Assembly: GCA_913020555.1 (NCBI GenBank)
Contig: CAJWAC010000006.1
Coordinates: forward strand, 1-55,091
Reading direction: 5' to 3'
DNA from: an uncultured Polaribacter sp.
GTDB lineage: Bacteria; Bacteroidota; Bacteroidia; Flavobacteriales; Flavobacteriaceae
DNA: 55,091 bases
In this document: positions 23,180-41,826 of the stretch, piece by piece
How the letters are laid out: the number at the start of each line of letters is the position of its first letter
How positions within the stretch are numbered: position 1 is the first letter of the stretch
The notes under the pieces: model-generated
The model's input: only the letters and a program-made list of their open reading frames with translations
What the model was told of the DNA's origin: nothing
Databases searched by the model: none
Position numbers and translations under genes: made by a program

Positions 23180-23443
23180 GCTTTTTTGATGATTTATAAA
23201 ATAGATTCTGCCATTAGTTTTGATAATTAATGAGTTACTTAACAAGTTTAGCCCAGATTGAAATGGCATCCTTTTTTGAGGGACGAAAAAAAGATATAAT
23301 GAAAAGCTGGAAATAGCTTCTAAAAATAAATTTATATCAATTTGTTTAAAATTAAACTTTCCAATTTATTTTGGTAAATATTTTTGAAAATGATGCTTAG
23401 AATTTTTTTTGTTAGCATCTTTGCACTATCAAAAATATCAAAA

Positions 23444-39835: not shown

Positions 39836-39907
39836 ACTGCAAAAATACGATAATAAATATGTACCAAATTCTGTTTTTAGAAAACTTTAACTGCTTAATA
39901 AGCCTGC

Positions 39908-39990
39908 GTTAAGGATTGCAACGACAGCTTTTTTAAGATTTTTTATCTTAAAAAACTACAGTGGAAAGCCTGACCTGAAAGGTAACGCCC
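39908..39990 (+). ncRNA. Candidate structured RNA upstream of glnS
   Basis: In the 305-base gap before glnS there are three nested or adjacent stems. An outer pair is GCGTTA (near 39908) with TAACGC (near 39985). Inside is a perfect 11-bp hairpin TTTTTTAAGAT / ATCTTAAAAAA, and then a short ACCT-GAA-AGGT hairpin before the outer 3' arm. Unpaired GGATTGCAACGAC and AGTGGAAAGCCTGACC flank the central hairpin and look conserved. I recall similar blocks (GCGTTA-GGATTG...AGCGGAAAGCC...AACGCCC) recurring between genes in Flavobacteriia, possibly the class called Flavo-1. That identity is not verified. Confidence 0.6.
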
Positions 39991-40106
39991 ATATTTTTAA
40001 AAGAAAAAAGTATAAATGTAAAAAGAAACATACAATACAATTTATTACTTAGAAACTTTGCCATATGTTTAATTTACAAAATTTAAATTTCGTTAAGTAT
40101 TTTATG

Positions 40107-40114
40107 TAATTTTG
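40107..40114 (+). promoter_or_regulatory. -7 element of glnS
   Basis: TAATTTTG fully matches TAnnTTTG, 26 bases before the glnS ATG. A matching TTTG at the -33 position is not evident. Confidence 0.5.
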
Positions 40115-40140
40115 TACATTAATTTTTTTTTGATAAAACA

Positions 40141-41826
40141 ATGTCTGAAGATAGTAAATCACTTAATTTTATTGAGCATATTATAGAAGAAGATTTGGCA
40201 AACGGAATGCCGAAAGAAAATTTACGCTTTCGTTTTCCGCCAGAACCTAATGGATATTTGCATATTGGCCATACTAAAGCTATTGGAATTAGTTTTGGCT
40301 TGGGTGAAAAATATAATGCCCCTGTAAACTTACGTTTTGATGATACGAACCCTGCAAAAGAAGAACAAGAATATGTAGATGCAATTAAACAGGATATTTC
40401 TTGGCTGGGTTACAATTGGGCCAATGAATGCTATTCTTCTGATTATTTTCAGCAATTGTATGATTGGGCAATTTTATTGATAAAAGATGGAAAGGCATAT
40501 GTAGATTCCCAAACTTCTGAAGAAATGCGCGAGCAAAAAGGAACTCCAACTCAAGTGGGCATAAATAGCCCATTTAGAGCAAGAACTGTTGAAGAAAACT
40601 TGGAATTATTCCAAGGAATGAAAGATGGAAAGTTTAAAGAAGGTGAACACACTTTGCGTGCAAAAATTGATATGGCTGACGACAACATGTTAATGCGTGA
40701 TCCTTTAATGTATAGAATTATGTACAAAAACCATCATAGAACTGGTGATGATTGGTGTATTTATCCAATGTATGATTGGACGCATGGAGAAAGTGATTAT
40801 ATAGAACAAATTTCGCACTCTTTGTGCTCTTTAGAGTTTAAGCCCCATAGAAAATTATACAATTGGTTTAGAGATAATGTTTACGATTTTAGTAAAACTA
40901 AATATCCACACCCACCAAAACAGCGCGAATTTTCTCGTTTGAATTTGAGTTATACCATAATGAGCAAACGTAAACTATTAAAATTGGTAGAGGAAGGATT
41001 TGTTTCTGGCTGGGATGACCCTAGAATGCCTACTATTTCTGGCTTACGAAGACGTGGTTATACTCCTGCATCTATAAAAAGTTTTGTAGAAACTGTTGGT
41101 GTTTCTAAACGAGAAAATGTAATTGATGTTGCGCTTTTGGAATTCAAAATCCGTGAAGACTTAAACAAAACTGCTAAAAGAGTAATGGGCGTTTTAGACC
41201 CTGTAAAAGTGGTAATTACTAATTATCCTGAAGGAGAAGAAGAAATTTTAGACGCCAATTATAATGACTACGAAGAAGGATTTGGTAGTAGAACTGTTCC
41301 TTTTTCTAGAGAAATTTATATAGAGAGAGAAGATTTTAGAGAAGAAGCAAATAAGAAGTTTTTCCGATTAAAATTAGGTAAAGAAGTCCGTTTAAAAAAT
41401 GCTTATTTTATCACCGCAAACAGTTGTACTAAAGATGAAGATGGAAATATTACTGAAATTCAGTGTACTTACGATCCATTAACAAAATCTGGGAGCGACA
41501 CTCCAGAAAGTAAACGTAAAGTAAAAGGAACTTTGCATTGGGTTTCTGTAAAACACGCTGTAAAAGCAGAGGTTAGGGCATATGACCGGTTATTTTTAGA
41601 TGAAGCTCCAGATAGTCATAAAGACAAAGATTATATGGATTTTATCAATCCGAATTCTTTAGAAATTATTGAAGCTTTTTTAGAACCGAGTTTACAATCT
41701 GCAAAAATTGGAGAGCGTTTTCAGTTTCAACGCTTAGGGTATTTTAATGTTGATGATGATTCAATTTCTGAAAATCTTGTTTTTAATAAGACTGTTGGTT
41801 TGCGTGATTCTTGGGCGAAAAAGTAA
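40141..41826 (+). CDS. glnS: Glutaminyl-tRNA synthetase
   Basis: GlnS charges tRNA-Gln and is a class I synthetase, with 561 residues, close to the E. coli enzyme. The HIGH motif is in PNGYLHIGHTKA (about 34-45) and the KMSKS-like motif is MSKRKL (about 277-282). Two C-terminal anticodon-binding beta-barrels (about 340-550) distinguish it from bacterial GltX. Together with asnS this suggests direct glutaminylation and asparaginylation. The next small gene begins just after its stop. Confidence 0.97.
   Translation: MSEDSKSLNFIEHIIEEDLANGMPKENLRFRFPPEPNGYLHIGHTKAIGISFGLGEKYNAPVNLRFDDTNPAKEEQEYVDAIKQDISWLGYNWANECYSSDYFQQLYDWAILLIKDGKAYVDSQTSEEMREQKGTPTQVGINSPFRARTVEENLELFQGMKDGKFKEGEHTLRAKIDMADDNMLMRDPLMYRIMYKNHHRTGDDWCIYPMYDWTHGESDYIEQISHSLCSLEFKPHRKLYNWFRDNVYDFSKTKYPHPPKQREFSRLNLSYTIMSKRKLLKLVEEGFVSGWDDPRMPTISGLRRRGYTPASIKSFVETVGVSKRENVIDVALLEFKIREDLNKTAKRVMGVLDPVKVVITNYPEGEEEILDANYNDYEEGFGSRTVPFSREIYIEREDFREEANKKFFRLKLGKEVRLKNAYFITANSCTKDEDGNITEIQCTYDPLTKSGSDTPESKRKVKGTLHWVSVKHAVKAEVRAYDRLFLDEAPDSHKDKDYMDFINPNSLEIIEAFLEPSLQSAKIGERFQFQRLGYFNVDDDSISENLVFNKTVGLRDSWAKK

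Follow-up and report, generated by a model that had tools for sequence, protein, structure and literature searches.

The Flavo-1 hairpin upstream of glnS in a Polaribacter genome is probably one copy of a dispersed flavobacterial DNA repeat

What is the multi-stem block that lies upstream of glnS in the draft genome of an uncultured Polaribacter sp., a small RNA in its own right or a mobile-like intergenic element? The first-pass annotation of this DNA proposed both and named Flavo-1 among the Rfam models worth searching. An Rfam scan of the window, the whole stretch of 55,091 nt analysed here, returned two Flavo-1 (RF01705) matches and one tRNA. The match upstream of glnS, at 39897–39979 on the plus strand, scored 57.9 bits (E 4.7e-10) with the Rfam covariance model against a cut-off of 42, and the window copy has the same core as the Rfam family. 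The second copy, at 23246–23317 on the same strand, scored 64.7 bits.

The glnS-proximal element spans 39902–39992 of the plus strand. Its outer stem pairs GCGTTA (39906–39911) with TAACGC (39983–39988), as read from the sequence and as recurring in the alignment of copies with the same ends, termed type B below. Inside this stem, the inner triplet AGG (39912–39914) pairs with CCT (39969–39971) in covarying columns, GCA (39918–39920) and GGA (39963–39965) form the left and right sides of a GNA/GNA internal loop, and a two-base stem of covarying column pairs joins AC (39921–39922) to GT (39961–39962). The inner hairpin (39929–39955) is perfect, 39929–39939 pairing with 39945–39955 over 11 bp, and was assigned by sequence, fold and class comparison to a site variant of interior class a. 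The type-B mini-hairpin with its GAA loop (39973–39983), identified from the fold, is longer in the orthologous copies of G009 and G016, where its arms are also paired. The outer stem, the perfect hairpin and the GAA-loop hairpin described at first pass are therefore all present in the sequence. The purine-rich GGATTGCAACGAC and AGTGGAAAGCC, which had been regarded as conserved single strands, are indeed the two arms of the family core and border purine internal loops, but they pair in the short stems flanking those loops.

The minimum-energy RNA fold of 39902–39992 (L004:1506–1596) corresponded to this structure, with five of the six outer pairs and −18.6 kcal/mol. Fifteen of 200 shuffles folded as well, and the wider stretch 39880–40010 adopted a different fold that 24 of 200 shuffles equalled, indicating that homology and covariation do better than chance here and folding energy alone does not. 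Model R2, which represents type B with the outer stem included, gave the window copy 89.0 bits, a score that is not independent because the copy is among the 36 rows from which the model was built. The outer stem and the GAA-loop hairpin are outside the Rfam structure, yet they recur in 36 aligned copies as an extended, type-B form of the family.

The window copy sits between a 143-aa gene on the minus strand and glnS on the plus strand, with its end about 150 bases upstream of glnS (40141). Boxes of the form TAnnTTTG, given as the sigma-A −7 consensus in the available portion of PMC9723704, lie on either side of it, at 40107–40114 (plus) for glnS and at 39840–39847 (minus) for the diverging 143-aa gene, both assigned by motif match rather than from a mapped start. 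The same box was found 15–60 bases upstream of glnS in 22 of 24 genomes. If both boxes are promoters, the element belongs to neither the glnS transcript nor that of the 143-aa gene, in keeping with the first-pass remark that the block stands apart from glnS and its −7 box. A glnS leader would be expected between promoter and start codon, and the predicted box at 40107 lies downstream of the element; the window copy probably plays no part in glnS expression.

A copy occupies the same place upstream of glnS in seven relatives (G001, G004, G009, G013, G015, G016 and G021), all of which have, between Flavo-1 and glnS, a small gene whose product looks by eye like a zinc ribbon. The window genome (G000) has no such gene in 39990–40141. 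Both flanks could be aligned in 16 genomes, eight with a copy and eight without, and the eight absences agree with a search of those loci by model R1, which was built from 35 copies with flanks included. The 5′ arm is degraded in G001, G021 and G004, and part of a type-B right end survives in G019, although none of the searches gave it a score. Among the orthologues the inner triplets read AGG/CCT in G000, G009 and G013, GCG/CGC in G015 and GTG/CAC in G016, where the outer stem has become GTGTTA/TAACAC. Our best explanation, which we hold to be probable as a whole, is that the window copy was inserted long ago between two diverging promoters predicted by motif, and belongs to a dispersed non-autonomous DNA repeat similar to REP elements and MITEs. 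One alternative is that Flavo-1 is a functional structured RNA, an sRNA or a cis-regulator in many copies, with the window copy as one transcribed instance. Compensatory change at one orthologous site, as seen at glnS, is what a functional RNA would show, whereas the position of the window copy outside both promoter-like boxes argues against its transcription.

In the literature Flavo-1 has been an RNA. The table of Weinberg et al. that lists it reportedly has the columns RNA, cis-regulatory and riboswitch. Its prediction there in 2010 carries the entry y, n, n in the available portion of the paper (PMC2864571), and Flavo-1 is one of the abundant sRNA families named in the accessible text of a 2022 review (PMC9029176). 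Rfam likewise classes it as sRNA, in support of the RNA alternative, whereas the evidence presented here favours DNA. In the accessible text of open-licence PubMed Central literature, we found no description of Flavo-1 as mobile.

Comparison of copies revealed a modular family. A common core of short stems and a GNA/GNA internal loop, both sides of which conform to GNA in 90 of 107 distinct copies, is enclosed by one of two end types: type A (TAGCCC, core, GGAAATAGCTTC) or type B, the form of the copy upstream of glnS (GCGTTA, core, optional mini-hairpin, TAACGCCC), each then followed by an A-rich stretch. The interior hairpin belongs to class a (CATCC/GATAT, with a variant AAATCC/GATTG) or class c (TGAGCTC/GCGAGT). 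Of 139 entries typed by script, type A carried interior a in 45 and interior c in 46, type B carried interior a in 38 and interior c in 5, and 5 were left untyped, which indicates that ends and interiors combine; the second window copy is type A with interior a. The long apical loops of three copies (L026, L033 and L049) contain parts of another dispersed repeat, with arms TCAGTTCGAGT and TATCGAGAAC, as though a hairpin had inserted into another's loop.

The test set at first pass, compensatory change in the arms, gave a positive result. In 107 distinct copies, 95.3% of cells were paired, compared with 52–64% when partners were slid by 1–3 columns, and double changes occurred at 10 of 15 pairs, in an alignment that was fitted to the model and is thus biased towards the structure. 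A MAFFT alignment of 35 copies gave 94.0% against 50–65%, and 35 distinct type-B copies gave 95.6% against 30–50%. In nearly all of these type-B copies the outer stem is GCGTT/AACGC, with three of its five pairs invariant and one double change, so that covariation comes mostly from the inner stems. Covariation of this strength is an argument for a functional RNA. Only one of 214 cells at the two most variable pairs is a wobble, suggesting that both arms may change at once, as DNA conversion or hairpin-templated correction would do. In addition, ten folds of five copies in both orientations showed neither strand to be consistently more stable, the purine loops lying on the Rfam strand, and folding energy therefore cannot separate RNA from DNA; the near-equal folding of the two strands in these copies nevertheless speaks against a functional RNA.

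The block recurs across flavobacteria, as had been stated at first pass. By Rfam search, Flavo-1 was present in 22 of 39 genomes, the window genome included, and among 23 other congeners, 18 contained 1 to 91 copies and five contained none. The window's own draft genome, 76.5% complete, had 13 matches, seven of them over the cut-off, when searched singly and 12 when searched in the batch of genomes. Model R1 recovered at least 149 copies in G018, where Rfam found 91, and the exact arm pattern of one subtype matched 104 times in G018, 45 times in G008 and four times in G001. One type-A pattern occurred in at least 119 stretches of the species genomes; the 80 matches listed came mainly from Polaribacter, Chryseobacterium, Flavobacterium, Kaistella, Halpernia, Tenacibaculum and other flavobacteria. 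One type-A copy had no blastn match in plasmid and phage collections, and one type-A pattern had no exact match in viral contigs. A single Flavo-1 pattern match (L346) lies in a contig filed under Candidatus Nitrotoga, which is probably misplaced.

Copies of different ages are apparent within this distribution. The 29 class-c copies of G018 have near-identical arms in unrelated flanks, and 27 of their full cores are distinct, differing mainly in the loop. One insertion (L270) is found in G018 and G008 only and is absent from 26 of 28 genomes with matching flanks, with no match upon recheck in any of the 29 loci L278–L306. Eight empty L270 sites were aligned; among the sites aligned none was empty to the exact base, because the flanks are too diverged. 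By contrast with such bursts, at least 22 sites are common to different species (L140/L214 included; L252/L022 omitted since their positions differ), and G001 and G021 have all four copies of their syntenic blocks in common (one being a weak match), indicating slow movement in most lineages. The family thus comprises both old inherited copies and recent bursts. At individual sites, the second window copy is missing from G008 and G017, and the L001 site is filled in G013 and G005. With patchy presence, amplification, and filled and empty sites, Flavo-1 behaves as the mobile-like intergenic element suggested at first pass, and patchiness and bursts weigh against a functional RNA. About 80–1480 of L274 (G018) consists of tandem units of about 145 bases, relatives of which adjoin several other G018 Flavo-1 copies.

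At six of 22 shared sites, the interior class differs between species, while the end type and the inner triplets compared agree, agreement being judged from right triplets, interior classes and alignments. These are the L001 group, the second window copy (L003), the glnS site, L010/L212, L137/L235 and L144/L238; L211/L243 was excluded because its arms differ as well as its interior. The second window copy has interior a, for example, as against interior c in its G001 and G021 orthologues. Wherever the ends at shared sites could be typed, the end type was unchanged (two sites with some untypable ends; L140/L214 left out). Sequence comparison leads us to infer that recombination between copies (gene conversion) has replaced the inner hairpin; renewed insertion at the identical base and in the same orientation is less likely. 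Accommodating the family as a whole, we envisage that an imperfect palindrome with purine internal loops would spread as DNA into many intergenic regions of flavobacterial genomes, its folded strand perhaps being what is recognised, that copies would be inherited at many sites after insertion, and that inner hairpins would be swapped between copies by gene conversion. More tentatively, and with rather less than even confidence, we suggest that Flavo-1 is a mobile hairpin family of its own with a mover other than Y1/RAYT, in which the interior is a cassette overwritten via the shared arms. If so, copying at the DNA level would yield compensatory changes without intermediates, which would explain why Flavo-1 was taken for an RNA.

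The gene contexts of the copies, defined from open frames of at least 80 codons rather than from annotation, differ between the end types. The counts left out L164, which duplicates L216, the L133 and L141 orthologues L160 and L161, L263 (wrongly trimmed) and L221 (its locus overlaps L015, an exclusion that proved unneeded). Only four of 130 typed copies lie inside an open frame. Between codirectional genes, type A has its Rfam strand antisense rather than sense at 43:4, or 30:4 with one copy per shared site; G018 alone gave 10:2, and a species scan of the type-A pattern 34:15 among the matches listed (80 loci). Type B showed no bias at 16:12. The proportion of type-B copies in sense (12 of 28), together with some that end 15–40 bases upstream of a start codon in sense, is compatible with a functional RNA, whereas the antisense excess of type A is not what such a role would lead one to expect. 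Transcription points both ways. In the available portion of the F. psychrophilum RNA-seq study of Guerin et al. 2021, 'several' 5′ transcribed regions coincide with Flavo-1, yet copies are described as occurring in sense or antisense indistinctly, with many untranscribed (PMC9723704). Taking these observations together, with copies that are patchy and locally amplified, mostly antisense in type A, and strand-indifferent and in many cases silent in that RNA-seq, we regard the independent small RNA of the first-pass annotation as not borne out, and a functional RNA of either kind as improbable.

The same contexts raise another explanation, that type A, whatever its origin, is kept for a role at DNA or mRNA 3′ ends, for example as a boundary or a 3′-end signal behind the upstream gene. 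The right-hand gene points its 3′ end at the element in 69 of 88 type-A copies, with a peak near 12 bases, and a W-AA-W-AA stretch, rich in A (in T if read on the transcribed strand), abuts the type-A end in 29 of 29 G018 copies and in 34 of 46 others counted once per site; the sites common to different species would also fit retention. However, the lack of a U-tract behind the hairpin on that strand means that type A is not a plain intrinsic terminator, and the abutting tract is already present in the recent G018 copies, where a preference for such targets would account for it as readily as selection does. We consider such a role doubtful, though less so than that of a functional RNA.

The dispersed DNA repeat that we favour calls for a mover, and the missing mover is the weakest link of the mobile-DNA reading; comparisons of neighbour clusters, arms and RAYT/Y1 genes found none. 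Among the 22 largest protein clusters around copies (239 loci), there was no transposase, and the loci looked housekeeping-like by eye. About 1,400 combinations of offset and length, in a test that also left out L035 and L209, gave no convincing target-site duplication (the largest excess, 4 of 88, compares with an expectation of 0.4). An arm search of four genomes with one mismatch allowed found 41 left and 39 right arms; two left arms, both in G009, had no listed partner, and one of these lies inside a full Rfam match. The idea of an autonomous parent element carrying a gene within the hairpin was rejected, since in these four genomes each of the 39 right arms has a left arm within about 150 bases.

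True REP elements are moved by RAYT/Y1 (HUH) transposases, and those of these genomes might likewise move Flavo-1. Y1 (PF01797) matches were found in 13 of 39 genomes, including one in G018 and two in G009, and a RAYT-like clade gave strong matches in seven genomes, its nearest model being NF047646 at a score below the cut-off. Flavo-1 occurs in six of these seven genomes compared with 16 of the 32 others, in both G018 and G005 a Flavo-1 copy and a RAYT-like gene are no more than about 1.5 kb apart, and the combination of no target duplication with a conserved flank on one side only fits single-strand insertion. But a different palindrome lies on both sides of the six RAYT-like genes for which both flanks were compared, with one arm degraded at one G013 gene, and upstream of the other three. 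Furthermore, G001, G008 and G021, with 57–62 copies each, had no Y1 match at E 0.001, and G015 has Flavo-1 beside the same gene as the RAYT-adjacent copy of G018, without the RAYT. With another palindrome adjoining the RAYT genes and three copy-rich genomes devoid of a Y1 match, RAYT was set aside as the mover and seems to us very improbable in that part. The palindrome beside the RAYT-like genes, for example GACCTCACAGGTTTTTAAAACCTGTGAGGTC (L083, L103, L104, L106, L108 and L116), is probably a REP family of its own.

Flavo-1, read as mobile DNA, resembles REP, MITE and BOX elements each in part. With REP elements it shares short imperfect palindromes, many intergenic copies and no target duplication seen; unlike REPs with their RAYT (NF047646), it does not flank the RAYT clade found here as a cognate repeat, and several Flavo-1-rich genomes have no Y1 match. 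MITEs are likewise small, non-autonomous and multi-copy, and type B has a short terminal inverted repeat as they do, but Flavo-1 shows no target-site duplication, type A has no such terminal repeat, and neither the four-genome arm search nor the largest neighbour clusters revealed a full transposon sharing the ends. Streptococcal BOX elements, likened here by description, are also modular dispersed hairpins with combining parts; BOX modules vary in number, whereas the inner hairpin of Flavo-1 changes class at one site while the arms agree.

Flavo-1 has been an Rfam small-RNA family without a function since 2010. Should it prove to be a mobile hairpin of DNA, many of the sRNA genes annotated in flavobacteria would not be genes at all, and covariation by itself could misdirect the search for RNAs wherever a palindrome is maintained or repaired at the DNA level. 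The exchange of interiors between copies at shared positions offers a concrete, testable process, and genomes such as G018, with about 150 copies, suit attempts to catch movement. Several neighbouring features were noted during the RAYT and Y1 comparisons. A single open frame of G005 (L084, 1429–2991) joins a RAYT-like domain to coproporphyrinogen oxidase, and the same fusion may account for the open frames of 529 and 525 aa that coincide with the RAYT matches of G015 and G019. A DUF805 RNA (RF03081) match of 79.8 bits lies near a Y1 transposase gene in G006 (L072, 2363–2431).
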